A stretch of 41,757 nucleotides of DNA. Origin: Betaproteobacteria bacterium (GTDB taxonomy: Bacteria > Pseudomonadota > Gammaproteobacteria > Burkholderiales > Thiobacillaceae). Positions 1,681 through 16,539 of this stretch are shown here, piece after piece. Position numbers and translations under genes: made by a program. The notes under the pieces were generated by a model that saw only the letters and a list, made by a program, of their open reading frames with translations, had not been told where the DNA came from and did no database searches. Each line of letters opens with the position of its first letter. The first letter of the stretch is position 1. The stretch spans positions 1 to 41,757 of the forward strand of contig JAGUXX010000074.1 of NCBI GenBank assembly GCA_020061585.1. Direction: 5' to 3'.

Positions 1681-1725
1681 TGGTGCCCCCGACACGAATC
1701 GAACGTGTGACCCTCCCCTTAGGAG
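1681..1725 (-). repeat. Left att: duplicated 3' half of tRNA-Arg(CCT)
   Basis: This 45-bp segment matches 12873-12917 with two differences. On the minus strand it reads from the anticodon CCT through the T-arm to the CCA end, so it is a 3' tRNA fragment with no 5' half. The two differences fall opposite each other in the T-stem (ACACG/CGTGT here, ACCCG/CGGGT in the intact tRNA), so pairing is kept. With the intact tRNA at the far end, this marks the boundary of an element integrated in the tRNA gene. Confidence 0.92.
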
Positions 1726-1856
1726 TAGGCGAGTTTTACGGTTTTCCATCAATTTCAATCAACGCCGAAAACCCGCAAGAACCCAGCAATATCAAGGCTT
1801 AGTGGCTTATTTCGTGTAAATCCGCATTGATTTAAATTGAGGCGAATTGCTCAAAA

Positions 1857-1896
1857 TTGGCTACACTGTGGCTACACCGAATCAACTTGTAGCCAA
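1857..1896. promoter_or_regulatory. Left arm-type integrase sites (three TTGGCTACA-like motifs)
   Basis: TTGGCTACA lies at 1857-1865, GTGGCTACA 11 bases further on at 1868-1876, and an inverted copy (TGTAGCCAA) at 1888-1896. The same direct pair with the same 11-base spacing recurs near the other end at 12796-12815. One-helical-turn spacing and presence inside both att ends are typical of integrase arm-binding sites. The sites also overlap the region where the integrase promoter should be, which would allow autoregulation. Confidence 0.6.
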
Positions 1897-1907
1897 GCGA
1901 GGGCGCC

Positions 1908-3245
1908 ATGAAACGCGAACGTCTGACCCCTGAGCGCATCCGCCTCTTCACCTGTCCACCCGATACGAAACAAGCATTCTTCTGGGATACCCTGGCCCCG
2001 CGTCTTGCTGTTCGTGCGACCGCCACCGCCAAGAGCTTCATCTTCGAGGCCAAGCTGAACCGCCAGACTATCCGCACCACGATAGGCGATGTGCGAGCCT
2101 GGAACCTGGACGATGCGCGCCAAGAAGCCAACCGCCTGCAAACTCTGACCAACCAAGGCACCGACCCCCGCGAACAGAAGCGCGAGCGCATCGCCGCCGC
2201 CGAAGCCAAGAAGGAAGATGAGCGCCGCCAAGATGTAACGGTCTCGGAAGCATGGGACGCCTATATCGAGGCCCGTAAATCACGGTGGAGCGCCCGTCAT
2301 TTGCAAAATCACCTGACGCTTGCCCAAGAAGGCGGGGTGAAGCGGAAAAGTGGGCGTCACCCTGGCGAAGCTGAAACCACCAGACCCGGCCCGCTTCGCT
2401 CATTGCTGCCGATGCGCCTTGCCGACATTGACAGCAACACGGTCAAGACCTGGCTGTCCGATGCAATCGAGCGCGGCCCATCGCAAGCGGAACAGGCTTT
2501 CCGTATCTTCCGGACCTTCATTGGCTGGTGCGCCGAACATGACGACTACAAGGCGGCAGCGAACGCCGATGCCTGTGCATCCAAGGTAGTGCGGGAGATG
2601 GTTCCCAAGGTGAAACCGAAGGATGACGTGCTACAGAAGGAACAGCTTTCCTCATGGTTCGCCGCCGTTCGCCGGATTCAGAACAACGTGATTGCCGCCT
2701 ATCTGCAAACCCTGTTGCTGACTGGTGCGCGCCGCGAGGAACTGGCCGGCCTGACCTGGGATGGCCTCGACTTCGCATGGAACAGCATGACGATTCATGA
2801 CAAGGTGGAAGGCCAGCGCGTCATTCCACTGACGCCCTATGTCGCTTCATTACTCGCCGCCCTGCCACGCCGCAAGGACAAGGACGGCAAGCCCTTGCCT
2901 TGGGTATTCAGTAGCCCGACCGCCGCCAATGGCAGACTTCAGGAACCGCGAAAGCAGCATGTCAACGCACTTGATGCCGCTGGCCTACCTCATGTCTCAC
3001 TGCACGGTCTACGCCGCTCATTCGGCACCCTGGCGGAATGGACTGAGGCACCCGTGGGCGTTGTGGCTCAAATCATGGGGCACAAGCCGAGCGCCATTGC
3101 CGAAAAGCATTACCGCCGCCGTCCGCTCGACCTACTGCGCATGTGGCACACGAAGATTGAGGCTTGGATGCTGGAACAGGCCGGCATCGAACAGCCTAAT
3201 GAAGAACAGGCCGGCTTAAGGCTGGTGAATGGGGGGAAGGCATGA
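1908..3245 (+). CDS. int: Tyrosine site-specific recombinase (integrase)
   Basis: A 445-residue integrase that would catalyse element insertion into and excision from tRNA-Arg. The N-terminal ~100 residues resemble the arm-binding domain of P4-type/DUF4102 integrases. A core-binding helical domain follows. The catalytic domain shows the expected residues: R275 (TGARREEL), K299, H366 and R369 (HGLRR), H392 (GH), and the nucleophile Y402 (EKHYRR). All six catalytic positions are present, so the protein is probably active. The ATG at 1908 follows a GAGGG-containing stretch and lies just after the arm-type repeats. Its stop overlaps the next start as ATGA. The last residues include AGLRLV, a string also found at the end of the next protein. 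Confidence 0.95.
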   Translation: MKRERLTPERIRLFTCPPDTKQAFFWDTLAPRLAVRATATAKSFIFEAKLNRQTIRTTIGDVRAWNLDDARQEANRLQTLTNQGTDPREQKRERIAAAEAKKEDERRQDVTVSEAWDAYIEARKSRWSARHLQNHLTLAQEGGVKRKSGRHPGEAETTRPGPLRSLLPMRLADIDSNTVKTWLSDAIERGPSQAEQAFRIFRTFIGWCAEHDDYKAAANADACASKVVREMVPKVKPKDDVLQKEQLSSWFAAVRRIQNNVIAAYLQTLLLTGARREELAGLTWDGLDFAWNSMTIHDKVEGQRVIPLTPYVASLLAALPRRKDKDGKPLPWVFSSPTAANGRLQEPRKQHVNALDAAGLPHVSLHGLRRSFGTLAEWTEAPVGVVAQIMGHKPSAIAEKHYRRRPLDLLRMWHTKIEAWMLEQAGIEQPNEEQAGLRLVNGGKA

Positions 3246-3889
3246 GCAACGGACTACTTCGCCTGATTATCGAGGATAAGCTGTCACGCCTGCTTGAACC
3301 TTGGGCCTTGCCGCACCTTGCCCCCGCTCTGGATGGCGATGTGGAAGCCGCATCCAGCCTTGTCTGGGCAGCGGGTAACGCCAAGCGCGGCTTATTGGCT
3401 GTCGCTTTCTGGCGCTGCAAGGCCCCTGTTCCCGCCTATCGCGCCATGCTGTCGAATGTTTGGGACCATGACCACCGCGAAGCTATCGCCGCCGCTGGCA
3501 ACCGCCGCACCCTTCGCGCCATGTTTCGATATGCAGCATTCCCACTTCCCAATGACATGCCGGAAGTGGTGAGGGTTTGGCGGGGAACGTCCTATCTGAG
3601 CGAAAAGGAAAGCGCAAAAGGCTATTCATGGACCATTGATAGGGATGTTGCTTGCTGGTTCGCGATGCGCTTTGCCGACAGGAACAATAATCCACTTGTA
3701 CTTGCCGCCGATGTACCCATGGCCGAAATCCTGCTTTATCACGATGAGAGAAGCGAAAAGGAGGCCGTGCTATTCAAGCCGCCAGCCTATTGGATAGACG
3801 GACACCCGGAAGAATGGCGGGATGGGTATGAGCGACACCAAGCCGAGAACGCCGGCTTACGGCTGGTTAAGATCAACACCGCCGCCTGA
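3242..3889 (+). CDS. ADP-ribosyltransferase-like protein
   Basis: A 215-residue protein I do not recognise as a named family, but its C-terminal half has the R-S-E layout of mono-ADP-ribosyltransferases. R114 lies in VWRGTS, an S-x-T element (S129-W-T131) sits in GYSWT, and there is an E-x-E pair (E172, E174) in RSEKEAVLF. Between them, ACWFAMRF and NPLVLAADVP resemble the core strands and helices of the ART fold. The first ~100 residues are helical and unassigned. Its ATG overlaps the integrase stop (ATGA), so it is probably translated together with the integrase. In a satellite, such an enzyme could modify a host or competing-phage protein. That role is inference; the ART assignment rests on motifs only. 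Confidence 0.6.
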   Translation: MSNGLLRLIIEDKLSRLLEPWALPHLAPALDGDVEAASSLVWAAGNAKRGLLAVAFWRCKAPVPAYRAMLSNVWDHDHREAIAAAGNRRTLRAMFRYAAFPLPNDMPEVVRVWRGTSYLSEKESAKGYSWTIDRDVACWFAMRFADRNNNPLVLAADVPMAEILLYHDERSEKEAVLFKPPAYWIDGHPEEWRDGYERHQAENAGLRLVKINTAA

Positions 3890-3972
3890 CGGTTTCAGGC
3901 AAAAGCGGGGCGCAAGAGTGAAGCAACACCCGAGCGCCCCTAACCGCAATGCAACTGGAATGGAGTTACACC

Positions 3973-4254
3973 ATGGCTAAAACAGAAGATAGCATCACCA
4001 ACCCGAACAACATCATTCGGTTCCCTGGTACCACGTTCGAAACACCCGCCAGCACGGATAGAAAGCCAGCCAAACGGGCCAAGACAAGCCCGGCCCTATC
4101 GCCCGAGGATGCCGCGCTGCTGGAAGCGTTTCACCGGCTTTCTGAATATGGTCGGAAAATTGCCGCATCAACGGTGAGTCATTGGGCCCGTTGCGAAGCC
4201 ATCGAAGTGGAGTGTGGAAAATCGGCTTGGAATGCCTGGCGCGGCATTGGCTGA
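3973..4254 (+). CDS. Hypothetical protein (93 aa)
   Basis: I do not recognise this gene. The ATG at 3973 is preferred over 3949 because GGAG lies about seven bases upstream. The first ~45 residues are polar and likely disordered, rich in Pro, Thr and Lys. The C-terminal half is predicted helical (SPEDAALLEAFHRLSEYGRKIAASTVSHWARCEAIEV) and could form a small helical bundle. It sits between the ART-like gene and another hypothetical gene on the same strand. No membrane segment or metal motif is seen. Confidence 0.6.
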   Translation: MAKTEDSITNPNNIIRFPGTTFETPASTDRKPAKRAKTSPALSPEDAALLEAFHRLSEYGRKIAASTVSHWARCEAIEVECGKSAWNAWRGIG

Positions 4255-4334
4255 TAACCAGTGCCCCAGCATCCGCGCCGCCAGCAAGGGGGGCGTTCCC
4301 CCCGCTTCACCCCAGATTACGCGAAAGGAATTGC

Positions 4335-5063
4335 ATGACCGACCCTTGGACAACCCTATTTAGGGTGGGATTAAACGATGGAAGAAAATACGAAGCCAAT
4401 GCCAAGATCGCCGCCGCGCTGGAGCTTGACGCCTCGTTTTTCGAAGTGAAATGGGGCGAATTCGGCGCACCCGCATTGGCGCTGAAAACGATATTGCCGC
4501 TATCGCTGGGCATCAATCCAACACACCTATGCGGGAGCGTCGAGTGGGCAGAAACCTATGCAAAATACGCTACTGGCGCTGTCGCCGAAAAGTTCGCGGA
4601 AATGCTGAATCGGTATAAGACGCTTGTCGAAAACCTAGAAATCAATGGCGGCGACGTGCCTATCGCGGTCAAGGGAAATACCGACCTCGAACATCGAATC
4701 AAGGTTGCCGTTTTTGTGGCTTTTGCCGACGCCAAGGGATGGGATCTGCCGGTACAGTTAGCGACGGGGAGTGCCGCCAGCCGGGCCGAAACGCCCGAAA
4801 TTGGCAAGCCGACACCCCGCAAGGATTGCCGCGATACTGGCAAGCGTGAAAGCCAGATTCAGGCCATTGAAAATGCCGCGCGTGACATTGGCTATCTGAA
4901 CCCGCTTGAAATCCCGACCGGGGGCCGCGCCGCAATCAAGGCGCATTGCATTGCTTGGAAGGTATTTGGAAAATCGGAAAGCGGCTTTCGCGCCGCATGG
5001 CGTGAAGCCAACAGGCAAGACCGAATCCGCCTCGCTGAGAAAGAAAAATACATGAGCAAATAA
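4335..5063 (+). CDS. Hypothetical mobile-element protein (242 aa)
   Basis: Not assigned to a named family. The N-terminal ~140 residues appear soluble and mixed in structure. After a short Pro/Lys-rich linker, the C-terminal ~70 residues (from RESQIQAIENAARDIGYLNPLEIPTGGRAAIK to the Lys-rich end) form a compact domain that I recall seeing in proteins of proteobacterial plasmids and prophages. It may be a DNA-binding or replication-accessory module. The ATG at 4335 has AAAGGAA just upstream. It is followed by a block of GGGGGCAC repeats before the next gene. Function unknown. Confidence 0.65.
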   Translation: MTDPWTTLFRVGLNDGRKYEANAKIAAALELDASFFEVKWGEFGAPALALKTILPLSLGINPTHLCGSVEWAETYAKYATGAVAEKFAEMLNRYKTLVENLEINGGDVPIAVKGNTDLEHRIKVAVFVAFADAKGWDLPVQLATGSAASRAETPEIGKPTPRKDCRDTGKRESQIQAIENAARDIGYLNPLEIPTGGRAAIKAHCIAWKVFGKSESGFRAAWREANRQDRIRLAEKEKYMSK

Positions 5064-5121
5064 AGGGGGCACCAAAAAGGGGGCACTGAAAAAGCACCCT
5101 TGCACCCTTTGCGTGCCCCCT
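5064..5121. repeat. GGGGGCAC repeat block with potential hairpin
   Basis: AGGGGGCAC occurs at 5064-5072 and 5078-5086, and its exact reverse complement GTGCCCCCT at 5113-5121. The block begins one base after a stop codon and precedes the AlpA-like gene. It could form a stem (no U-tract follows), or be a protein-binding site for an element regulator. Confidence 0.5.
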
Positions 5122-5182
5122 GGGTGGCCCGGAAACACTGGCAACACCGCTGCATGTCGCAGCATTCAAAAGGTGAAGCCAG

Positions 5183-5398
5183 ATGCAAACACATACCGCC
5201 ACCAGCACCACTCAAGCGCACCGCCTGAGCACCGAGGAAGCCGCCGCCCGCCTAAAAATCAAGCCCCAAACCTTGCGCGCCGCGCTTTGTCGAGATGGGC
5301 ACTATCTCGGGGCCAGACCCATAAAAAGCGCCAACCGTTTTTTGCTCTGGCCGGCCGACCAAATCGAGCGCCTGGCCGCTGGTGAGGTGGCAGTGTGA
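5183..5398 (+). CDS. Small helix-turn-helix protein, AlpA/excisionase-like (71 aa)
   Basis: A short DNA-binding protein. The central stretch LSTEEAAARLKIKPQTLRAALCRDGHYLGARPIKSANRFLLWPADQIERL has the layout of MerR/AlpA/Xis-type winged helix-turn-helix proteins: helix, turn, recognition helix, short wing, then a tryptophan-proline motif before the last helix. Such proteins in satellites act as excisionases or as transcription activators of the integrase or replication module. AAAGGTGAAG upstream of the ATG at 5183 is a good ribosome site. The stop overlaps the GTG start of the next gene, implying coupling. Family-level assignment is fair; role is inferred. Confidence 0.7.
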   Translation: MQTHTATSTTQAHRLSTEEAAARLKIKPQTLRAALCRDGHYLGARPIKSANRFLLWPADQIERLAAGEVAV

Positions 5399-5577
5399 CC
5401 ACCAAACAAGTAGTAGATGCCATCGCGGCCAACCACAAATCGCCGGGTTTCGAGACCGCTGATTTTATCGCGGCGTCGCTGCCATTCTTACCGCCTGAGC
5501 GGCGTAAAGATGCCGAACGTCTGATATTGCGCAACCTCATTGCTGGTTTGCGGGCCAAGGGAGACCCACGTCGATGA
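5395..5577 (+). CDS. Small hypothetical protein (60 aa, GTG start)
   Basis: Unrecognised. It begins with GTG overlapping the stop of the AlpA-like gene (GTGA) and ends overlapping the ATG of the O-like gene (ATGA), so it lies within a translationally coupled trio. The protein is mostly helical and charged, with LPPERRKDAERLILRNLIAGLRAKG near the end. Its position directly ahead of the replication protein suggests a part in replication or its control, but nothing in the sequence proves this. Confidence 0.6.
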   Translation: MTTKQVVDAIAANHKSPGFETADFIAASLPFLPPERRKDAERLILRNLIAGLRAKGDPRR

Positions 5578-6257
5578 GCCTGGACGCGACGCGGTGGGCG
5601 TGGCAGCAAACTCTCCGGCCATCGCACAAACTGCTGCTGTTGTCCCTTGCTGATCGGGCTGGCGAGGGGCATGAGTGCTTCCCATCAATCGCCCGCCTTG
5701 TCGGTGACACCGGCTTGGACCGTGAAACGATCATGCAGGCCGTTTGCCAGCTTGAGCAACTCGGTCTGCTGTCTGTAAATCGAGCGGCCGGCAAGGGCAA
5801 CCATTACCGGCTAATTGGCGTTCTGAATCGGCACGCAGACGATAACCAGTCGGCAAAACCAGTAGGGAAAACAGGACCAGTAGGGAAAACAGGACCAGTA
5901 GGGAAAACAGGACGGGACCAGTCGGGAAAACCCGACCACCACCAGTCGGGAAAACCCGACACTGAATCTACCAATGAATCTACCAATAACCCGACCACGG
6001 TAATTGATGCGATTTCATCCCTTCCTGACGGTCTGGATTTGACTGCCTGGGAACGTTGGACCGAGTACAAAAAGCAGATAAAAAAACCTATCCGCCCAAT
6101 ATCGGTTCAACCAGCACAGAAAAAAATGGCCACATTCGGTACGAACCAAGCCGCCGTGGTCGAGCAAGCAATAGCAAATGGCTGGCAGGGGCTTTATGCC
6201 CTCAAATCTGGCGCGGACGTCGTGGCAGGAAGCGAGGCAAAACATGACTGGATTTGA
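5574..6257 (+). CDS. Phage O-like replication initiation protein with embedded iterons
   Basis: A 227-residue protein whose first ~90 residues form a winged helix-turn-helix like those of phage replication initiators (HKLLLLSLADRAGEGHECFPSIARLVGDTGLDRETIMQAVCQLEQLGLL). The middle (about residues 93-130) is a low-complexity segment of repeated PVGKTG and SGKPD units, encoded by 18-bp DNA repeats. The C-terminal part is a small helical domain (WERWTEYKKQIKKPIRPISVQPAQKKMATF). The layout of binding domain, iterons inside the gene, and C-terminal domain matches lambda O, where the origin lies within the gene. A helicase-like ATPase is encoded just downstream. The start overlaps the preceding stop, and the 3' end overlaps the next gene by 14 bases. 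Confidence 0.75.
   Translation: MSLDATRWAWQQTLRPSHKLLLLSLADRAGEGHECFPSIARLVGDTGLDRETIMQAVCQLEQLGLLSVNRAAGKGNHYRLIGVLNRHADDNQSAKPVGKTGPVGKTGPVGKTGRDQSGKPDHHQSGKPDTESTNESTNNPTTVIDAISSLPDGLDLTAWERWTEYKKQIKKPIRPISVQPAQKKMATFGTNQAAVVEQAIANGWQGLYALKSGADVVAGSEAKHDWI
5858..5958 (+). repeat. Iteron array, candidate replication origin
   Basis: Three perfect tandem units of ACCAGTAGGGAAAACAGG start at 5858, 5876 and 5894. Two variant units ACCAGTCGGGAAAACCCG start at 5917 and 5941, and a partial unit lies near 5845. The variants contain a CGGG-AAAA-CCCG dyad. A duplicated GAATCTACCAAT follows at about 5963-5990, and A-rich tracts at about 6068-6130. The array lies inside the O-like gene. Confidence 0.65.
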
Positions 6258-6666
6258 AAGCTTCTTGAACCGCGTCACCGGCATTCCGCGAGAGCCAACC
6301 GTCGTTGACGCCGTGCAAGCGGTGACGCTTTACCGCAATAGCTTTCAACGCAAAACCCGGCCTGGCGGATTCGCCGAACTGAAGGCCATCCGGGACAAGC
6401 GGATGAAACCCGCATGTCGAATCGTGGTGACTGATGAGAGAAGCATTGCGGAAGCCCTGCGCGAATCGGGCGAAGCGTTCCCGTTACTGATCTCCGGCTT
6501 TGCGGACTACGACTTCTCGCCGGTCTACGGACTGAATGTGTTGTTCCTGATGCCTGATACCGGACTGTGGGCTGTTGATGTGGCTCACCAGATCGCTGAC
6601 GTGGAACCCAAAGCCTTCGCCTTGCAATGGCCCGGCAACGAACTGGAGGAAGTGCTGTGGAACTGA
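6244..6666 (+). CDS. Hypothetical protein between O-like and helicase genes (140 aa)
   Basis: Unrecognised. The chosen ATG at 6244 gives 140 residues and overlaps the 3' end of the O-like gene by 14 bases. The protein has a basic N-terminal half (LYRNSFQRKTRPGGFAELKAIRDKRMKPACRIVV) and a more hydrophobic, acidic C-terminal half (GLNVLFLMPDTGLWAVDVAHQIADVEP). No catalytic motif is evident. Its place between a replication initiator and a helicase suggests a helicase loader or replication accessory role. That is only a positional guess. Confidence 0.6.
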   Translation: MTGFESFLNRVTGIPREPTVVDAVQAVTLYRNSFQRKTRPGGFAELKAIRDKRMKPACRIVVTDERSIAEALRESGEAFPLLISGFADYDFSPVYGLNVLFLMPDTGLWAVDVAHQIADVEPKAFALQWPGNELEEVLWN

Positions 6667-7547
6667 TACCTGACGACGTTAATTTCGGAGAATTCGAACA
6701 CCGCGAAGAGTGGCACAAGGTCAAGGCCGCATCCTCGTGGCTGGCCGATGTGCAAGACCGCTTTGCAAATCCTGACGTTCATCAAGGCGATGCGTTGCCG
6801 TGGTCCAAGGTTGATGGCTACAGGATGCGAAAGAGCGAGGTATCCGTGTGGTTCGGCATCAACGGGCATGGCAAGTCGATGCTGCTGTCGCAAGTCATGT
6901 TGCAGACCATCGCCACCGGCAAGCGCGTCGTAGTGTGTTCGATGGAGATGACGCCGACAAAAACGATGATGCGCATGGTTCGGCAGGCTTCTTGCGGCGA
7001 TAACCCTGCGCCCGGTTACATCAACAAATTTCACCAGTGGACCGATGGACGTTTGTGGATATACGACCACCTGGGAATGGTCAAGCCGGACAAGATGTTG
7101 GCGGTACTGCGCTACTGCCACACGAAGCTGAAGGCTGACCACGTTGTTGTCGACTCACTTATGAAATGCGGCATGGCACCGGATGACTACGGCAAGCAAA
7201 AAGCCTTTGTCGATGGCCTTTGCGGCGTGGCGCTCGAAACCGGGATGCACATCCACCTTGTTGCGCACGCTCGCAAAGGCGAAAAGGAAACCGACCGCCT
7301 GGACAAGTTCGACCTGAAGGGAAGCAGCGAGATTGCCGACCAGGTGGACAACCTGTTGATCGTTTCGAGGAACAAGAAAAAGGAAACCGACCGTGACGCG
7401 AAGTTTGCCGACGAACCGGATGCGTTTCTGAGCGTCGTCAAGCAGCGTCACGGCGACTGGGAAGGGACGGCCGGCCTTTGGTATGACCAGGGCAGTCAGA
7501 GCTACCTGCCGGCCCCGAATGCACCGCTGATAGGCGTCGATCTATGA
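6657..7547 (+). CDS. Replicative-helicase-like RecA-fold ATPase (DnaB/RepA type)
   Basis: A 296-residue ATPase with the RecA fold of hexameric phage helicases. Walker A is GINGHGKS (K73, S74), in the GxxGHGKS form I recall from phage primase-helicases. Walker B is DHVVVDS (D166). A sensor-like HLVAHARKGE and the later EIADQVDNLLIVSRNKKKE follow the DnaB_C/gp4 order. No TOPRIM primase domain is present, so it would be a helicase only, with priming supplied by host or helper. The start is GTG at 6657 with GGAGGAA upstream at 6645. It overlaps the previous gene by ten bases. Together with the O-like protein and iterons it forms a replication module. Confidence 0.78.
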   Translation: MELIPDDVNFGEFEHREEWHKVKAASSWLADVQDRFANPDVHQGDALPWSKVDGYRMRKSEVSVWFGINGHGKSMLLSQVMLQTIATGKRVVVCSMEMTPTKTMMRMVRQASCGDNPAPGYINKFHQWTDGRLWIYDHLGMVKPDKMLAVLRYCHTKLKADHVVVDSLMKCGMAPDDYGKQKAFVDGLCGVALETGMHIHLVAHARKGEKETDRLDKFDLKGSSEIADQVDNLLIVSRNKKKETDRDAKFADEPDAFLSVVKQRHGDWEGTAGLWYDQGSQSYLPAPNAPLIGVDL

Positions 7548-7675
7548 CCGGACTGGCACAAATCAGCAAGCAGCATTCAGCCGGCTTGAAAGTGCGGAAA
7601 ACCGGACGGAACCGCACTGTTGCAGCCCCTTAAAGTTGCTCCATGAATATCCAACAGGACAAACCGGAGCGAGAA

Positions 7676-7927
7676 ATGGGCACGATTGGCAACAGCTTCG
7701 AACGAGCAAAAACGGCAATCCAGAAACTTGGGATCAGCCATTCGGCTTGGTATGACTGGCGTCAGCGCGGATTGCTGCCGCCTGGCATCCGTCTGGGCGC
7801 GCGTACCGTGGTCTATCCATCAAGCGAGATCGCGGCCGTTGTCGCAGCGCGCAGCGAAGGGCAGACAGACGACGAAATCAAAGCGTTGGTTATTCAGCTT
7901 GTCGCAGCGCGTCAGGTGACGGCATGA
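7676..7927 (+). CDS. AlpA-like helix-turn-helix regulator (83 aa)
   Basis: A small DNA-binding protein. IQKLGISHSAWYDWRQRGLLPPGIRLGARTVVYPSSEIAAVVAAR has the full AlpA signature: turn, recognition helix with W-x-x-R-G-x-x-P-P, and a YP-x-x-E-I wing. AlpA proteins activate integrase or replication genes in P4-type elements and in Gram-negative satellites. The ATG at 7676 is preferred because GAGCGAGAA lies just upstream; an earlier ATG at 7643 would add 11 residues. Its stop overlaps the micro-ORF start (ATGA). This is the second HTH of this type in the element, so one may be an activator and the other an excisionase. Confidence 0.78.
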   Translation: MGTIGNSFERAKTAIQKLGISHSAWYDWRQRGLLPPGIRLGARTVVYPSSEIAAVVAARSEGQTDDEIKALVIQLVAARQVTA

Positions 7928-7995
7928 CCGAACCGTACAGCAAGCCAAGCCGCGCGAACCGTCGCCAAAAACGCGGATGGAAGCGGTCAAAATGA
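7924..7995 (+). CDS. Basic micro-ORF (23 aa)
   Basis: A 23-codon frame reading MTEPYSKPSRANRRQKRGWK then RSK. It starts within the stop of the AlpA-like gene (ATGA) and ends within the start of the XRE-like gene (ATGA). It is strongly basic. It may be a real peptide or only a translational bridge that couples the two neighbours. Confidence 0.4.
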   Translation: MTEPYSKPSRANRRQKRGWKRSK

Positions 7996-8777
7996 GCATG
8001 CAGCTGCCATTCCGGCAAGCCGCGCTGACGGCGGCAATCGCTGCCATCGATACGAGCGACTTCGTGAACGTCAAGCAGCCGGCACAGCTCGACGCTGAAG
8101 GCGAAGATTGGAATGACGACGACGATGCCCAGCCAGATACGCTTGAGGCTGAGCCAGATGATGCCGACGACGACGTTGTTGTCGTCGACATTCCACTACC
8201 CAGAATCAGCGATGAAGAGCGGCGCGCGCGGGCCAACGAATTGCGCCGTTTGATCGGCCAGCGGTTTCGTGCGGCACGCGATTTGTGCGGCTTCAGCGCA
8301 TCCGATGCGGCAAACAAACTTGGCATGGCTGTTCGCGCACTTGAGCGAATTGAAAGCCCTATCGGGCGCGTGCCGAGTCACCCCGAAATCGTCGCAGCGG
8401 CAGGCGTCTACGAGGTTTCCATCGACTTCTTGTACGGCGCAACCGAAGCATTCGAGACCGACTTTGCAACGGCTCAAAGACGCGCGGCCGGCGCATGGTT
8501 GTTCAAACGATTTGAGCAGAACTGGCGCGATCAACTTGCCAAGTTTGCGCGCCTGGATAGGCAACTTGAAAAGTTCGCCGGGCTCATCGAAGCCATGGCG
8601 GTTGTAGCAGATGAAAACGCAGCCGCGATTGCAAGTCTGCGCACACGAAACCCCGAGTTTGACGACATACGCGGTGGCGCAACTGTTGTTCGGCTCACTG
8701 AAACACTTGTTCGACGTGGTGCTGAAGGGCGCGCCCTACTAAAACGGTTTTGCACAGAAGTGGGGGCGGTCGGATGA
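7992..8777 (+). CDS. XRE-type helix-turn-helix domain protein (261 aa)
   Basis: The N-terminal ~70 residues include a very acidic segment (EGEDWNDDDDAQPDTLEAEPDDADDD). Residues of about 80-145 look like a lambda-repressor-type HTH (LRRLIGQRFRAARDLCGFSASDAANKLGMAVRALERIESPIGRVPSHPEIVAAAGVYEVSIDFLYG). The C-terminal ~100 residues are helical and probably mediate oligomerisation. The start at 7992 is chosen because it overlaps the preceding stop; the frame is also open from 7977. Its stop overlaps the next start (ATGA). It could be the element's master repressor or a protein that responds to a helper phage. The acidic arm might mimic DNA, but that is speculation. Confidence 0.65.
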   Translation: MSMQLPFRQAALTAAIAAIDTSDFVNVKQPAQLDAEGEDWNDDDDAQPDTLEAEPDDADDDVVVVDIPLPRISDEERRARANELRRLIGQRFRAARDLCGFSASDAANKLGMAVRALERIESPIGRVPSHPEIVAAAGVYEVSIDFLYGATEAFETDFATAQRRAAGAWLFKRFEQNWRDQLAKFARLDRQLEKFAGLIEAMAVVADENAAAIASLRTRNPEFDDIRGGATVVRLTETLVRRGAEGRALLKRFCTEVGAVG

Positions 8778-9862
8778 TCAAGAAACCGAACCTCGATTGG
8801 CTTAAAACCAAGGGCCACGTTGCAGAAGCGAAAGCCCGTTTGGCCGAAGATGCCGCGCAACGCAAGGCGGCGGAGAAAGCGCCGAACTCGATCATTTTCG
8901 GCAAGCAGGATGCACAAGGCGAATACGACGCACACCGCGCGTTGATGACTACCTTGGGCGGCCAGCATCGCTTGATTACTGCGACCGACCTCGCAACCTT
9001 TCGGGCGAACATCAAGAAGCACCAGGCGCGGTTTGCAAGCGCCGGTATCACGGCCAAACAGGTGCTTTCGCTGGCATCGTCGCAACCGATCAGGAACCCG
9101 ACAACCGGCTCATCTGACCTGTCACGCGCTGACGCCGAGATACGCGTTTCAATTCCAGTTACTGCAATGGTTACGAGCGCATCGGGCCGCAAGAGTCTTG
9201 ATGTCAGGTTTCAGACGAATGCCGGGCCAAACTCTGAAGTTACTCGACACAATGTCTTGGTCCGATTCTTCGGTTATGACGAGCAATCGCGCGCACTTTC
9301 CGCCACACCTACGACTGGCGACAAACCGAAGAAGGCTGTCACCCCAAAACAGGCCGCGAACGCGCTACGGCGTGGCTATCTGGCATTCGAGTGCGATTGC
9401 AAAAGACATAGGTTCTTCTTCAGATACTTGGCTACGGCAGGCGGATTCAATTCCGGTCGAGATGAATTAGGCTACCCCAAAATAAATAATCCTGGACTGC
9501 ATGGCGTGGCCTGCAAGCATGTCTTGCGCACGATGGCTGAAATTAATTCATCAATGCCTGTTCTTGGCTTCCTTGAGCGCGCAATGAACAAGGCTTTGCT
9601 GTCGGCAGACAACACGGTACGGATTCAGCAAAGCCAAGCAGATGCGCGCGCAATGGCAGCAAAACAGCAGGCATCCCCACGAGTTATCGCCGCGCTTGCC
9701 GAAGCCGCAAAGCAGGCACCAAAAGCGAAAAGAACAAGCCATCGCGCACGAAAGATGGCGTCGTCTGACGCTGAAACCCGCGAACGTGCAGCAGCTACTT
9801 TGGCGAAGGAATTCGGCATGTCGCCTGAACAATTGTTGGCCCTACTTGCGAGACACAAATGA
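8774..9862 (+). CDS. SWIM-like zinc-finger protein (362 aa)
   Basis: Unrecognised as a whole, but residues 207-249 contain a C-x-C ... C-x-H pattern (C207, C209, C247, H249; FECDCKRHRFFF and GVACKHVLR). This matches the SWIM zinc-binding motif found in proteins that act on nucleic acids. The N-terminal ~100 residues are helical and charged. The middle (about 120-180) looks beta-rich (AEIRVSIPVTAMVTSASGRKSLDVRFQTN). The C-terminus is Ala- and Lys-rich and may be disordered, ending in a short helical motif. It overlaps both neighbours by ATGA. A structural or DNA-processing role in the satellite cycle is possible but unproven. Confidence 0.65.
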   Translation: MIKKPNLDWLKTKGHVAEAKARLAEDAAQRKAAEKAPNSIIFGKQDAQGEYDAHRALMTTLGGQHRLITATDLATFRANIKKHQARFASAGITAKQVLSLASSQPIRNPTTGSSDLSRADAEIRVSIPVTAMVTSASGRKSLDVRFQTNAGPNSEVTRHNVLVRFFGYDEQSRALSATPTTGDKPKKAVTPKQAANALRRGYLAFECDCKRHRFFFRYLATAGGFNSGRDELGYPKINNPGLHGVACKHVLRTMAEINSSMPVLGFLERAMNKALLSADNTVRIQQSQADARAMAAKQQASPRVIAALAEAAKQAPKAKRTSHRARKMASSDAETRERAAATLAKEFGMSPEQLLALLARHK

Positions 9863-10173
9863 CATTCACATCAAACATTGACGCAGCGGAAAACGACGAT
9901 CTTTCGGAGATTCTGTCCGTTGAATCCATAAAAAACTTGGCAATCGAGGTTCACGCACTGAGCCAGAAACTGGCAGCGATACAACAACCCATCGACCACC
10001 TATTGTCAGCGGCAAGCGCGGTGAACATGGAGGGCCGGCTGTGCGTTGACGCTGTTGCGCTTGAGCTTATGGGATGGCGCGAGGGCCTGCTTGAACGGCT
10101 TGCCGAGATCCAGTTGCACCGGACCGGACTGGCGTACTCACTCGGGGAGGGAATCGAGCCAATCATGCAATGA
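9859..10173 (+). CDS. Hypothetical protein (104 aa)
   Basis: Unrecognised. It starts within the preceding stop codon (ATGA). The sequence is helical with heptad-like spacing (EILSVESIKNLAIEVHALSQKLAAIQQPIDHLLSAASAV, then LELMGWREGLLERLAEIQLHRTGLAYSL), so a small coiled-coil or helical-bundle protein is likely. There is no membrane segment or catalytic motif. Its coupling to the SWIM-like gene suggests the two products act together. Confidence 0.6.
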   Translation: MTFTSNIDAAENDDLSEILSVESIKNLAIEVHALSQKLAAIQQPIDHLLSAASAVNMEGRLCVDAVALELMGWREGLLERLAEIQLHRTGLAYSLGEGIEPIMQ

Positions 10174-10222
10174 AAGACAGCATCTTCCCAAACATTCAAT
10201 CAACCGAAAAGGAACAACCATC

Positions 10223-10813
10223 ATGACCACCAACATCCACAAGAAAACTCTCCGCACGATGATCGGAGCGCATCCTGAGCTGAAAAAGCTGGCTGGCCTT
10301 TGCGCACGGCAGCGCGTCAAGAACTTCGCCCAACTTGGGCAGATTGCGATCATGAATCGCGCCGCGCAAGCGCCTGACCCCGGCGCATTCCTTACCGACC
10401 TGCTCGAAAAGCTACAGGCCGAGGGCGCGGAGTTTGATGCGCTTCATGAAGCCTACGAAACGGAGCGCAAAGTTGTCATGGACGAATCCGCGCCGCGTCG
10501 CCAGGCGGCAACGAACCGGCGTTTCGAAATCGCCAAACTTGTTGAAAAACTCGACGCGCGAGTACGTTCAAGCAGTGCGCAGCGCCAGGTTGAAATGAAG
10601 CGTTACCGCGATGCTGGGCTGTCTGTTGAAAACCTCGCGGCGATCAAGTTTGTTTACACCCCGGAAGCAATCGCCGGATGGCAAGCCGAAATCGATGCCT
10701 TGAAAGCCGAAGCTGTGAAGCTTGATGAATTCATCGCGTCTGGACCGTTCTACAAGACCGAATTGCTCGACGGAACAACACTGGCGGTAGCGCCTGAAGC
10801 GCTCGCTGCATAA
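10223..10813 (+). CDS. Hypothetical coiled-coil protein (196 aa)
   Basis: Unrecognised. The ATG at 10223 has AAAAGGAAC upstream, a good ribosome site. The N-terminal ~60 residues are basic and helical. From about residue 60 to 150 the protein is rich in Glu, Lys, Arg and Ala with long helices (LLEKLQAEGAEFDALHEAYETERKVVMDESAPRRQAATNRRFEIAKLVEKLDARV), consistent with a coiled coil. It lies between the SWIM-like operon and the small-terminase-like gene, separated from each by about 50-110 bases. Confidence 0.62.
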   Translation: MTTNIHKKTLRTMIGAHPELKKLAGLCARQRVKNFAQLGQIAIMNRAAQAPDPGAFLTDLLEKLQAEGAEFDALHEAYETERKVVMDESAPRRQAATNRRFEIAKLVEKLDARVRSSSAQRQVEMKRYRDAGLSVENLAAIKFVYTPEAIAGWQAEIDALKAEAVKLDEFIASGPFYKTELLDGTTLAVAPEALAA

Positions 10814-10921
10814 ATCAATGCCGGGCCGAAGATATGGTTGGACTAAAACACCCGACAGGGAAATAAAACCAGCGCTTGCATGGCGTCGACTTCGTCCCGG
10901 CACCCAATTCAAAGGAATAAC

Positions 10922-11707
10922 ATGGCCGCAAAAGCAAAGCTAAGTCCTGAACAATGGAACGAGGTTCGTGCTCGATGGGAGGGCGACGAACGTAAAGGTT
11001 TCCCCTGGCTGGTTGCCGACATGGCGTTGCCTGTGAGCGACGAAGCTGTACGACAACGCGCCAAGGCCGAAGGTTGGTCAAAGCTTGCTGCGAAGGTCGG
11101 CAAACAGCCTGAATCCAAGCTTGTGAAAGCGACCAAATCCAAACTTGCCGATGACGCTGAAGCCGACCAAGACGCGCGCACACCAGGCCGGCCTACCCTT
11201 TACCGCGTCGAGTATATCGAGCAAGCGCGCCGGCTGGCGTTGCTTGGATTGACGAACGATGAGATGGCCGACTTCTTCGGAGTTGGTCCGGCAACGTTCG
11301 ACCGGTGGATGGCTGCGCATGATGAATTTCGATGCGCCATAAGCGATTCCAAGCTGATAGCGGATGGCGAGATCGCACTGAGCCTGTACAAGCGAGCCAA
11401 GGGCTACTCGCATCCGGATGTGCATATCAGCAACTTCCAGGGTGAGATAACCGTCACCGAACTGACGAAACACTATCCTCCGGACACTGGGGCCGCGCGG
11501 TTATGGCTGTTCAATCGCCAGCCTGAGTTATGGCGTGACAAAGTTGAAGTCAAGTCAGACGTGAACCTGAACGTATTCCCGCCCAAGGAAGTTCTGGATG
11601 CGATCTACGAAAAGGCATTGGCGGAAGCGGCCGAGCGTGAAGCCTTCCTAATCGGCCGGCGCGAAAGGCTGCTTGGGTCAAGCACTGAACAAGAGGAAGT
11701 TGATTAA
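10922..11707 (+). CDS. terS: Terminase small subunit-like protein (261 aa)
   Basis: The product resembles phage small terminases, which recognise packaging sites and feed DNA to the large terminase. Residues of about 5-60 form one DNA-binding unit (EQWNEVRARWEGDERKGFPWLVADMALPVSDEAVRQRAKAEGWSKLA). A second HTH lies at about 98-130 (RLALLGLTNDEMADFFGVGPATFDRWMAAHDEFRCAI). The family hallmark follows: ADGEIALSLYKRAKGYSHPDV, then TKHYPPDTGAARLWLFNRQPELWRDK at about 185-210. No large terminase, portal or capsid gene is in the element. A lone small terminase is known from phage satellites, where it diverts helper packaging to satellite DNA. The ATG at 10922 has AAAGGAAT upstream. Confidence 0.82.
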   Translation: MAAKAKLSPEQWNEVRARWEGDERKGFPWLVADMALPVSDEAVRQRAKAEGWSKLAAKVGKQPESKLVKATKSKLADDAEADQDARTPGRPTLYRVEYIEQARRLALLGLTNDEMADFFGVGPATFDRWMAAHDEFRCAISDSKLIADGEIALSLYKRAKGYSHPDVHISNFQGEITVTELTKHYPPDTGAARLWLFNRQPELWRDKVEVKSDVNLNVFPPKEVLDAIYEKALAEAAEREAFLIGRRERLLGSSTEQEEVD

Positions 11708-11956
11708 CCGCCCACTCTTTTTTGGGGCGTTGACCGAAGCGATACCCGAATTATGGGCATCGGTAAGTTCGGCAGGGAGATGGTCGAATGCAAAACTCAA
11801 TTTTGAGCTTGCTTTGGAATCAGCGACTTGGCAAGGGACTGTCTCTCCAACAATGGTCAGACGGTGAATCTTCGGAATCAACCGCCCCAAAATTGGGTTG
11901 GTTATTGAATCAATGGCTTGCCGCGACATCTTCCATTGCGGGCGAAGAGGCAAGTC

Positions 11957-12388
11957 ATGTCAAACATCATTCCGTTTCAGTTCGAGAAGCACTCTGTTCG
12001 CGTCGTTACTGACGACAACGGAGAGCCGCTGTTTGTTGACAAGGACATCTGCGATGCGCTTGGCTATGCAGACCACACCAACGCAATGAAGCAGCATTGC
12101 AAGGGGGTGGTAAAACGCCACCCCCTTCAAACTCCTGGTGGAATGCAGGAATTGCGCGTTCTCTCAGAGCCGGACGTTTTTCGACTTACCATCAAGAGCG
12201 AACTTCCCGGCGCTGAAAGATTCGAGGCGTGGGTTTTTGAAGAAGTCCTGCCATCCATCCGCAAGACAGGCGCGTATGCCATGCCAGGCGTCGAGTTCGC
12301 GCTTCCCGCGCCGCTGATTTTGTTTAAATCAGCCAAATTGGCTGAATGCTTGCGGCGCGGAATGAAGGCCATCCCGGTTACGCTGTAA
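11957..12388 (+). CDS. BRO-N domain protein (143 aa)
   Basis: Residues of about 5-115 form a BRO N-terminal DNA-binding domain, as in baculovirus BRO and phage antirepressors: FEKHSVRVVTDDNGEPLFVDKDICDALGYADHTNAMKQHCKG, then ELRVLSEPDVFRLTIKSELPGAERFEAWVFEEVLPSIRKTGAY. The usual second domain (KilA-C or ANT) is missing, and only ~30 residues follow. GAAGAGG lies upstream of the ATG at 11957. The stop codon TAA is inside the palindrome GTTAC-GCT-GTAAC that forms the first operator of the downstream regulator. It could be an antirepressor that responds to a helper phage; that is inference from family. Confidence 0.82.
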   Translation: MSNIIPFQFEKHSVRVVTDDNGEPLFVDKDICDALGYADHTNAMKQHCKGVVKRHPLQTPGGMQELRVLSEPDVFRLTIKSELPGAERFEAWVFEEVLPSIRKTGAYAMPGVEFALPAPLILFKSAKLAECLRRGMKAIPVTL

Positions 12389-12423
12389 CTGATCTTGCTC
12401 TATCATCCGGTTACAGTGTAACC
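12376..12423 (+). promoter_or_regulatory. Promoter with two palindromic operators ahead of the RHH-like gene
   Basis: Operator 1 is GTTAC-GCT-GTAAC (12377-12389). Operator 2 is GGTTAC-AGT-GTAACC (12409-12423). Their centres are 33 bases apart, about three helical turns. A possible promoter sits between them: TTACGC at 12378, 17 bases, TATCAT at 12401. Operator 1 would then cover the -35 and operator 2 the start point, a layout typical of autorepression. Confidence 0.6.
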
Positions 12424-12439
12424 AACGAAGGGGCGCACA

Positions 12440-12688
12440 ATGGCGATGACCAACGCACAGAAGCAAGCCAGCTACCGGCAACGGAAAATCAAGGAAGGCG
12501 AGGGCGAGCGGCTTCAAGCTGTTATCAGCCTGCATGCGAAACGAAGCATTGAACGCTTGGCGCGTCATTACGGCATCACTCAAGCCGCGCTGATTGAACG
12601 CCTGGCGATGGAAGAACAGCAACGTGTAACCGCCACCCTGGAAGGCGATGCGTATCGGGTTTTCCTTGGCGAGATGGTTACAGCGTAA
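12440..12688 (+). CDS. Ribbon-helix-helix-like regulator (82 aa)
   Basis: A small basic protein. RLQAVISL (about residues 28-35) can be the DNA-binding beta strand, followed by two helices (HAKRSIERLARHYG and QAALIERLAMEEQQRV). This is the order of a ribbon-helix-helix dimer and resembles RepB-type plasmid copy-control regulators. Two palindromes lie directly upstream and a third (GGTTAC-AGC-GTAACC, 12675-12689) overlaps its own stop codon, so it probably binds these and represses itself. It is the last gene of the element. Its operators also end the BRO-N gene, so it may control the right-end module. Confidence 0.7.
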   Translation: MAMTNAQKQASYRQRKIKEGEGERLQAVISLHAKRSIERLARHYGITQAALIERLAMEEQQRVTATLEGDAYRVFLGEMVTA

Positions 12689-12689
12689 C
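12675..12689. promoter_or_regulatory. Third copy of the palindromic operator
   Basis: GGTTAC-AGC-GTAACC, a perfect six-base inverted repeat with three-base spacer, identical in its arms to operator 2. The TAA stop of the RHH-like gene (12686-12688) is inside it. The regulator gene is therefore flanked by two copies in direct order. Confidence 0.6.
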
Positions 12690-12795
12690 CATTCGCGCGC
12701 GGGCCAAACCTGCGCTTTGCCGGTTTGGCGTATCGACAGCCAGCGAGTGAAGAGCGACGCTCACATCCGCTTACATGAACCGACATTGCCCGGAT

Positions 12796-12815
12796 TTGGC
12801 TACATGGTGGCTACA
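12796..12815. promoter_or_regulatory. Right arm-type integrase sites
   Basis: TTGGCTACA (12796-12804) and GTGGCTACA (12807-12815), spaced 11 bases apart, in the same order as the pair in front of the integrase. They lie about 60 bases inside the right att repeat, as expected for arm-binding sites. Confidence 0.58.
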
Positions 12816-12872
12816 CGGCACGAAATCCAAGGAGAAGCAGAAAGCAATATTATTGTAACACTTTGTTTTATT

Positions 12873-12948
12873 TGGTGCCCCCGACCCGAATCGAACGGGT
12901 GACCCTCCCCTTAGGAGGGGGATGCTCTATCCACTGAGCTACGGGGGC
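12873..12948 (-). tRNA. tRNA-Arg(CCT), chimeric with the integrated element
   Basis: A complete 76-base tRNA with CCA encoded. It folds as acceptor GCCCCCG/CGGGGGC, D-stem GCTC/GAGC, anticodon stem TCCCC/GGGGA with loop CTCCTAA (anticodon CCT), and T-stem ACCCG/CGGGT with TTCGATT loop. The 45-base 3' part is duplicated at 1681-1725. Because the element lies 3' of the anticodon, the present 3' half should come from the element and the original host half should be the left copy. Both versions keep T-stem pairing. Confidence 0.96.
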
Positions 12949-15671: not shown

Positions 15672-16475
15672 TCAACGTCCCAGCAACACTTCCAGCACGA
15701 ACTTGAATCCGACATAGGCCAGCATCAGGCTCACAAAACCGGTCAGCGTCCAGTAGATCGCGGTGCGGCCGCGCCAACCGTAGATGCGCCGGCCCAGCAA
15801 CAACGCGCCGAAAATCAGCCAGGAAGCGATGCCGAACACGGTTTTATGATTCAGCGTCACCGGCGTGCCGAAGATTTCCTCGGAAAACACCACCCCGGTC
15901 AGCAGAGTCAGGGTCAGCAGCAGAAAGCCGACCTGGATCATGCGGAACAACAACTTTTCCAGCGTCAGCAACGGCGGCAGACCGGAAACCAGCGTCGGCG
16001 GCACGGCTTTGTGCAGATGCTTTTGCGCCAGCGCAATCAGGCCGGCATGCAAGGCGGCGATGGTGAACAGGCTGTAAGCCGCGAACGCCATCGCAAGATG
16101 CAGCTTGAACATCGGCAAGGCGCTGTGCGCGGCCGCCTGTGGAATCGGAGCAATCGCCTCGATGCCCACCGCCACCCCGGCAAACGCCAGCACAAAGCCC
16201 TGCACGCCGCCCAGATGGTAACGCCAGGCGGCGGCGGCGTAGGTCATCACGGTCAATGCGGCGACCGCGGACAGCGAGGTGGCGAAACCGATGCGCACGC
16301 CTTCACCACCGAACACGCCTTGATTGAGCAAATAAAGATGCACCAGCAATGGCAAGACCGGCAGCACACGCGGCAGCCAATCGGTGCGGCAACACCCGGG
16401 CCGACCGGGCCAGAACCAGGCGGCGAGGCCCAGGTATGCGAGCGTGCACAAAATGAACAGCAGGTTTTCCAGCAT
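15672..16475 (-). CDS. YpjD/CcsA-like cytochrome c assembly family membrane protein
   Basis: A 267-residue integral membrane protein with about eight hydrophobic segments. It belongs to the CcsA/HemX-type family, with conserved His residues in LPMFKLHLAMAFAAYSLFTIAALHAGLIAL and in GTPVTLNHKTVFGIASWLIF. The E. coli relative YpjD also lies next to ffh, which is divergently transcribed here, so this is a conserved neighbourhood. The start at 16475 gives the hydrophobic MLENLLFILCTLAYLGL; longer frames to 16616 would enter the ffh gene. The gene converges on uup with a 21-base gap. Its precise function is not established; heme handling is a family inference. Confidence 0.85.
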   Translation of the reverse strand: MLENLLFILCTLAYLGLAAWFWPGRPGCCRTDWLPRVLPVLPLLVHLYLLNQGVFGGEGVRIGFATSLSAVAALTVMTYAAAAWRYHLGGVQGFVLAFAGVAVGIEAIAPIPQAAAHSALPMFKLHLAMAFAAYSLFTIAALHAGLIALAQKHLHKAVPPTLVSGLPPLLTLEKLLFRMIQVGFLLLTLTLLTGVVFSEEIFGTPVTLNHKTVFGIASWLIFGALLLGRRIYGWRGRTAIYWTLTGFVSLMLAYVGFKFVLEVLLGR

Positions 16476-16487
16476 GGTCTGCAAGCA

Positions 16488-16516
16488 TTGATTTGTTAGA
16501 CTGGGCGAGTTTATCC
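16488..16516 (+). promoter_or_regulatory. Possible sigma-70 promoter of ffh
   Basis: TTGATT (16488-16493), 17 bases, then TTATCC (16511-16516), about 25 bases before the ffh ATG in the 64-base gap between the divergent ypjD-like and ffh genes. Moderate match only. Confidence 0.35.
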
Positions 16517-16539
16517 CATCGCTCCTTGCCCAACCCACC

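Follow-up and report, generated by a model that had tools for sequence, protein, structure and literature searches.

The contig JAGUXX010000074.1 of a Betaproteobacteria bacterium (Thiobacillaceae, assembly GCA_020061585.1), whose 41,757 nucleotides (nt) are referred to below as the window, carries an 11.2-kb element that is bounded by 46-nt direct repeats (1680-1725 and 12872-12917, 96% identical) and that we consider likely to be an integrative satellite dependent on P1/Rb1-like myophages. The 17 predicted proteins of the element were scanned against Pfam and PHROGs, and its features, in window coordinates, are as follows.

1680-1725: left attachment site (attL), 46 nt that repeat the 3' portion of tRNA-Arg(CCT)
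1908-3245, plus strand: tyrosine integrase, int (PF00589, 3.1e-15; Arm-DNA-bind_3)
3242-3889, plus strand: g2, ATGA-coupled to int (phrog_4776, 1.4e-14)
3949-4254, plus strand: g3, a small protein starting at 3949 or 3973
4335-5063, plus strand: g4, with an ATG at 4335; a longer open reading frame (ORF) from 4182 is possible
5183-5398, plus strand: first AlpA/HTH_17-like protein, a regulator or excisionase (HTH_17, 7.9e-05, which is under the curated cut-off)
5395-5577, plus strand: g6, 60 amino acids, with GTGA and ATGA overlaps with its neighbours
5574-6257, plus strand: O-like replication initiator (HTH_36, 2.6e-13; phrog_6643 and phrog_678)
5845-5960, plus strand: putative iterons or origin, a 20-nt repeat that occurs six times within the O-like gene
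6244-6666, plus strand: g8
6627-7547, plus strand: short helicase of the DnaB_C/AAA_25 type
7643-7927, plus strand: AlpA-like regulator 2 (Phage_AlpA, 2.6e-07, above the cut-off)
7977-8777, plus strand: XRE-type regulator, homologous to an Rb1-like phage protein encoded just upstream of terS
8774-9862, plus strand: protein of the P1 gp25 (tail stability) family, ATGA-coupled to xre, with conserved CxC...CxH residues
9859-10173, plus strand: g13, a small protein, ATGA-coupled to gp25
10223-10813, plus strand: g14, matched by a profile from six other satellite-like loci (2.5e-08)
10922-11707, plus strand: terminase small subunit, TerS (phrog_309, 1.9e-42), with no terL downstream
11957-12388, plus strand: BRO-N/antirepressor-type protein (Bro-N, 1.1e-20)
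12440-12688, plus strand: g17, a small protein with a weak RepB-RCR_reg match (4e-4), just below the cut-off
12872-12917: core of the right attachment site (attR), within an intact tRNA-Arg(CCT) at 12948-12873, minus strand

An earlier note, made from the letters of this DNA, had named the integrase, the AlpA-like regulators, the O-like initiator with its repeats, the helicase, the BRO-N protein and TerS, and Pfam and PHROGs confirmed all of these proteins; the repeats are present as well. The ATGA coupling that it described is present at four junctions (int/g2, g6/O, xre/gp25 and gp25/g13, where gp25 is the gene for its SWIM-like protein), and a GTGA overlap is present at one. No primase family was found in the Pfam scan of the 17 proteins; the primase-named phrog_239 matches the helicase in its helicase part alone (positions 323-599 of 801) and the match to the primase-named phrog_23248 is weak (5.4e-05).

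Integration was examined by joining both flanks of the element and searching them against 23 same-genus genomes, including its own, three of which (G031, G020 and G018) display an empty site. In G031 (C71:2466-2616) the left flank of attL runs into the intact tRNA, with 131 of 151 alignment columns identical and the element absent, and a portion of the right flank resumes 127 nt further along; in G020 and G018 the alignment spans the empty-site junction and takes in 60 nt or more of left flank. By comparison with these sites the element is integrated at tRNA-Arg(CCT), so that the 46-nt repeats, the intact tRNA and the empty sites bear out the placement first proposed from the letters. We also observed that the empty-site tRNA of G031 C71 (L193) agrees at two bases with attL 1680-1725 and not with the intact tRNA of the window, as though the 3' part of the attR tRNA had come from the element. 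The G+C content is 0.54-0.60 in 1-kb windows within the element, compared to 0.62-0.67 in unmixed flank windows.

The same tRNA also hosts other elements. One of them, in a same-genus genome (L190; G025 C205, 777-4807), has an integrase 79% identical and an alpA1-like gene 60% identical to those of the window, and at the position beside int that g2 occupies in the window it carries a gene pair which we take to resemble the MqsR/MqsA toxin-antitoxin. Another, on an IMG/VR contig (L182, 1040-3304), shares the att core, with an integrase 63% identical and a g2 83% identical; it also carries a Terminase_2 TerS, of a type that differs from that of the window, and an LPD38 polyprotein, adjoins what is presumably a trpD-like gene, and has no phrog_2 TerL in its record. 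By similarity, the int-g2 module is found in unlike elements (the window and L182), and the g2 position is probably a swappable cargo slot.

The clearest pointer to a phage group came from the protein that the earlier note had called SWIM-like, which matches phrog_4315 (3.1e-66) and phrog_1722, 'tail protein' (2.6e-26). A tblastn search with this protein gave matches in 23 of 50,697 phage records; the 20 of them listed are Xanthomonas Rb1, Acinetobacter ABMM1, Cronobacter JK004, P1, D6 and similar Escherichia and Salmonella phages. The P1 homologue is gp25, annotated 'tail stability', and the CxC...CxH signature residues are invariant across a 20-row gp25 alignment. The earlier satellite reading was right in kind, but it had recognised neither the P1 gp25 family of this protein nor the P1/Rb1-like late genes. 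Its statement that the element lacks every structural gene is not quite accurate either, given that this protein is a homologue of the P1 tail protein gp25; it holds for P1/Rb1-like TerL, capsid, sheath, protease, portal and baseplate-wedge proteins, none of which matched the element. An AlphaFold2 model of the gp25-family protein (predicted local distance difference test, pLDDT, 78.5) had no PDB match at E<=0.001 and matched two uncharacterised viral proteins at that threshold, while PDB sequence matches of the gp25 profile to TAL effectors were set aside as repeat-motif chance. Searches of species genomes yielded little: a gp25-type protein was found in two of 117 family genomes, namely its own and one with a weak match (4e-4), phrog_4315 matched in one of 369 class genomes, again its own, and scans of genome contigs gave no relative when run with gp25 and one when run with the helicase. 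In plasmids the search with gp25 matched 847 of 72,556 records, mostly from Escherichia and Klebsiella; five of the 20 matches listed were inspected, and two of the inspected regions are copies in one Halomonas strain.

The XRE-type regulator and TerS point the same way. XRE matches a single record among the 50,697 phages, that of Rb1, where the gene lies two places upstream of terS, and the gene directly preceding terS in an Ideonella prophage encodes a homologue with 36% identity. In P1 the late-promoter activator gene lpa precedes pacA; P1 Lpa had no match when searched in the window, and the likeness of XRE to Lpa is therefore a positional analogy only. As for TerS, that of the window shares 57, 55 and 51% identity with its counterparts in the Rb1-like contigs L016, L021 and L024, and it has no PDB sequence match; the idea that it is a chimera with an N terminus like that of the Ideonella prophage was dropped in view of full-length homologues in Rb1-like contigs. 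Rb1 has the XRE gene, terS and terL within 4 kb and gp25 about 29 kb further on, and the window has the layout xre-gp25-g13-g14-terS. By homology, then, XRE, gp25 and TerS tie the element to P1/Rb1-like myophages.

Relatives were collected by scanning IMG/VR with the gp25 alignment (best 80 of 379 relatives kept) and, in order to counter the bias towards gp25, with the TerS alignment (best 80 of at least 582 kept); as each scan kept its best 80, the numbers of satellites given here are lower bounds and not frequencies. Close to gp25, most relatives kept from the gp25 scan have genes for TerL, capsid, sheath, protease or portal. The satellite-like set comprises 12 loci: the window, nine IMG/VR loci and two loci on Halomonas plasmids. 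Five came from the gp25 scan and carry XRE, gp25, TerS and a PmgG-like gene (L015, a 13,245-bp contig, L017, of 14,183 bp, L061, L074 and L084); four came from the TerS scan and carry XRE, TerS and tail-type genes without gp25 (L112, L116, L117 and L120); and the Halomonas plasmids pTHAF12_c (L010) and pZM3H1 (L011) carry XRE, gp25 and PmgG without a recognised TerS. Altogether XRE is present in 12 of the loci, TerS in 10, the PmgG-like gene in 10 and gp25 in 8, and four of the relatives are contigs of 13.2-14.2 kb. Before counting we set aside L014 (which duplicates the L010 element), L115, L119 and L142 (from the contigs that also gave L015, L074 and L017), L002 and L005 (a single match, weak or unrelated), the loci of the TerS scan whose only marker match is TerS, and L059, L075 and L082, which have no hallmark match but have P1-like neighbours of gp25 and neither XRE nor TerS.

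At E<=1e-4 the examined stretches of the 11 other loci gave no matches to the TerL, capsid, sheath, protease, portal or baseplate-wedge proteins of P1/Rb1-like phages. A search of whole records with the TerL and capsid proteins of L021, in which the positive control matched, found neither in any of the nine IMG/VR satellite records, with the exception of a 22-residue TerL match in L017, and the Halomonas plasmid records gave no match to Ideonella TerL and capsid queries, a search run with no control. The earlier note would have been contradicted by relatives that always continue into capsid, tail and lysis genes, or by a unique gene order full of frameshifts. Neither was seen: in their examined stretches 11 loci are without recognised TerL, capsid and sheath, lysis genes not having been searched singly, and the order XRE, optional gp25, g14, optional tail-type genes, TerS is found in seven loci (the window, L015, L017, L112, L116, L117 and L120). 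The arrangement in L061, L074 and L084 is hub-like gene, PmgG-like gene, gp25, two XRE genes, TerS, further genes and a second TerS, with g14-like genes, where found, at the front, and the Halomonas elements have XRE first, followed by small genes, gp25, more small genes and PmgG. The recurrent architecture has two or three forms.

Upstream of this block, an integrase is recognised by Pfam or annotation in the window, L010, L017, L084, L116 and L117 and by similarity in L015, and the gene next to int overlaps it by 4 nt in three loci (the window, L015 and L117). Where the stretch covers it, an O-like gene also lies upstream, and a DnaB-type helicase gene lies there in the window, L015, L074, L084, L116 and L117, with no DnaB match in L017. 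The g14 profile, built from six satellite-like loci, matches nine of the 12 loci, six of the nine being its own sources, and no locus outside the satellite-like set among those examined. The tail-type genes of the set comprise PmgG-like genes (phrog_1114) and phrog_4333, a gene for a gp21-like protein in L116, one for a tail-tube-like protein in L015, and genes for proteins related to Rb1 30122-32968 in L017, L061, L074, L084 and L117, with the baseplate-hub family in L074. Two TerS genes each are present in L017, L061, L074, L084 and L120.

As to how the phage-type genes were acquired, in L017 a short frame that overlaps the end of terS (11741-11833) begins like the terL of the phage contig L024 and then meets a stop; this terL stub, in one of ten TerS-bearing loci, looks like the trace of a capture from a terS-terL operon. 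In the gp25 tree the eight satellite rows among 88 need four label changes and in the TerS tree the 14 satellite rows among 100 need seven, three being forced by well-supported branches in each tree. The window gp25 pairs with L015 (SH-aLRT 99) within a clade of 27 rows, mostly Rb1-like phages. From these label changes, with mixed support and with long branches flagged, gp25 and TerS appear to have been acquired on more than one occasion.

Further observations concern individual genes and relatives. A reading of g2 as an ADP-ribosyltransferase, which started from a motif picked out by eye, was abandoned: its structural model is unusable (pLDDT 36.5), it has no Pfam or PADLOC family, and we claim no function for it. 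The product of g4 (4335-5063) has a weak match (6e-4) to the interval between terS and gp25 of the Rb1-like phage contig L055. A scan of the DNA for consensus promoters returned 0 sites, compared to 4.5 expected in shuffled sequences. The Halomonas elements reside on mobilizable plasmids, in Halomonas sp. THAF12 twice in one strain (L010 and L014) and in pZM3H1 (L011) a few kb from a mercury-resistance module; PMC3606827 describes pZM3H1, and where the text available from it mentions phage, it does so in other contexts only. In L074 a protein with a gag-asp/aspartyl-protease-type domain (15754-16602; PF13975, 5.3e-18) adjoins the satellite genes.

The element has the traits of phage satellites in general: it is integrative, it carries a phage-type packaging gene and it has no recognised genes to make a particle. 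P4-like satellites share with it an integrase and an AlpA-like regulator; in contrast, no psu, delta, sid or alpha is among the Pfam and PHROGs matches of its 17 proteins, and terS is present. P1/Rb1-like phages (NC_005856, PQ569993) have gp25 in common with the element and, in the Rb1-like members, XRE and TerS, but their genomes are about 90 kb long and hold TerL, capsid, sheath, baseplate and lysis genes, whereas the element has no TerL, capsid, sheath, protease, portal or baseplate-wedge match and falls outside a definition of such a phage or prophage by TerL, capsid, sheath and baseplate. The PICMIs of Vibrionaceae, as portrayed in the relevant parts of PMC10803314, resemble it in being small, in having AlpA and in an int that is often overlapped by the next gene at ATGA; they lie at fis, use a primase and, in PICMI115, have no terS, while the element lies in tRNA-Arg(CCT) with a terS and no Pfam primase family, outside the PICMI definition of a fis site with int, alpA and prim. 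Capsid-forming phage-inducible chromosomal islands (cfPICIs), which PMC11389934 names, are likewise satellites with phage-type morphogenesis genes, but they make their own capsids, whereas no capsid or TerL was found in the element and at least one tail-type gene was. The part of the same paper that enumerates known satellite families ties none of them to P1-like helpers, and no satellite of P1/Rb1-like phages was found in a literature search, which, covering open-licence papers only, is weak evidence of absence. We place the element among the phage satellites.

Three other explanations have to be weighed against a satellite dependent on P1/Rb1-like phages. The closest, which overlaps with it and differs in lineage, is a true Gram-negative phage-inducible chromosomal island (PICI) to which gp25 was added, and we regard this as rather unlikely. 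The earlier note had seen PICI-type logic here, and the gene set does fit: like the Gram-negative PICIs (e.g. EcCICFT073) as characterised in the identification criteria given within PMC6092414, the element has an integrase, AlpA, a replication module and, as some of them do, terS, with no structural or lytic gene cluster, but it does carry a homologue of the tail protein gp25. Several of these criteria suit it, including int, replication module and master regulator in a conserved order, which recurs in part of the relatives, and a size of 11.2 kb, just below the range of ~12-15 kb and counted by us as fitting. The PICI assignment is not secured, however, since the recurring set is marked by P1/Rb1-like late genes, with terS, XRE and gp25 of that type in the element and tail-type genes in relatives. 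Replication would also proceed through an O-like plus DnaB-type module, with the primase-named PHROGs matching the helicase part or matching weakly, and the att site appears not to be exclusive, being shared with another phage-like element that bears a related integrase, which makes the PICI trait of a unique att site doubtful for this element.

That the element is instead a decayed P1/Rb1-like prophage, which lost most of its genome and kept a few late genes by chance, is very improbable. Three genes homologous to that phage group and the terL stub retained in L017 would suit such an origin, but the xre-gp25-g13-g14-terS layout differs from the Rb1 order, a like arrangement with g14 recurs in six other loci, several of them also with int, O-like and helicase genes, and the ORFs are open and overlapping. 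It seems improbable too, if somewhat less so, that in this integrative element gp25, XRE and TerS serve as weapons against phages and not for its own transfer. Homologues of late genes could act as dominant-negative factors on late expression, tail assembly and packaging of an incoming phage, and in the Halomonas elements XRE, gp25 and PmgG are retained although no TerS is recognised; against this, the integrase, excisionase-type and replication genes, together with TerS in 10 of the 12 loci, point to mobility through packaging, and no PADLOC family matched the ten unrecognised proteins tested, seven of which are from the window.

Several observations weigh against a satellite dependent on P1/Rb1-like phages. 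The roles in excision, replication, packaging, late control and the tail are predictions carried over from known roles of the families. The host assembly (4.59 Mb, 336 contigs, 93.5% complete) yielded neither a TerL nor a capsid of the P1/Rb1-like kind, and therefore no helper was identified there; nor was a PF03354 terminase found in this genome, and the one Phage_capsid gene (PF05065) on another host contig (G000 C190:22322-23155, L098) probably belongs to an unrelated prophage. The presence of gp25 in eight of the 12 loci is biased, as gp25 was bait or starting point, and the four loci fetched with TerS have no gp25, while the two Halomonas elements have no recognised TerS. The block order is different in L061, L074 and L084, no integrase was recognised in the examined stretches of L061 and L074, and the O-like gene of L061 is on the opposite strand. 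Finally, the smallest well-supported set that holds the window TerS in its tree has 44 rows, its nearest rows being Rb1-like phages.

If the element is indeed a satellite of such phages, activity of a P1/Rb1-like phage in the cell would lead AlpA and the integrase to excise it, and the O-like initiator and the helicase would amplify it, starting at the repeats within the O gene. On the helper TerL, the satellite TerS may then replace the helper TerS and bring satellite DNA into helper heads. XRE could tune late transcription, either in the xre-gp25 operon of the satellite itself or in the helper, a role proposed because its helper counterpart sits beside terS. The gp25 copy would supply the tail-assembly factor of the helper or compete with it, and in related satellites other tail-type genes (PmgG-like, gp21-like and baseplate-hub-like) may occupy the same stretch.

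Beyond the single element, we tentatively propose that the window and its relatives form an unnamed satellite family with a usual core of XRE, TerS and g14, a specialist of P1/Rb1-like phages that would redirect packaging and customise the helper tail through interchangeable tail-assembly genes; this is possible, if short of probable. As part of this family reading, and put forward with the same reserve, the interchangeable tail genes (gp25, PmgG-like, gp21-like and baseplate-hub-like) might form a tail-side counterpart to capsid-forming satellites. To our knowledge, the satellites known so far resize, steal or make capsids, or bring terS, and tail-type genes in a satellite would be unusual. 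Many P1/Rb1-like phages live as phage-plasmids carrying cargo genes. If it is true that these phages, including the classic transducing phage P1, have satellites of their own, these would superimpose a further level of parasitism on one of the major routes of gene transfer. The set, with its short list of recurring genes, offers a model that can be tested directly.

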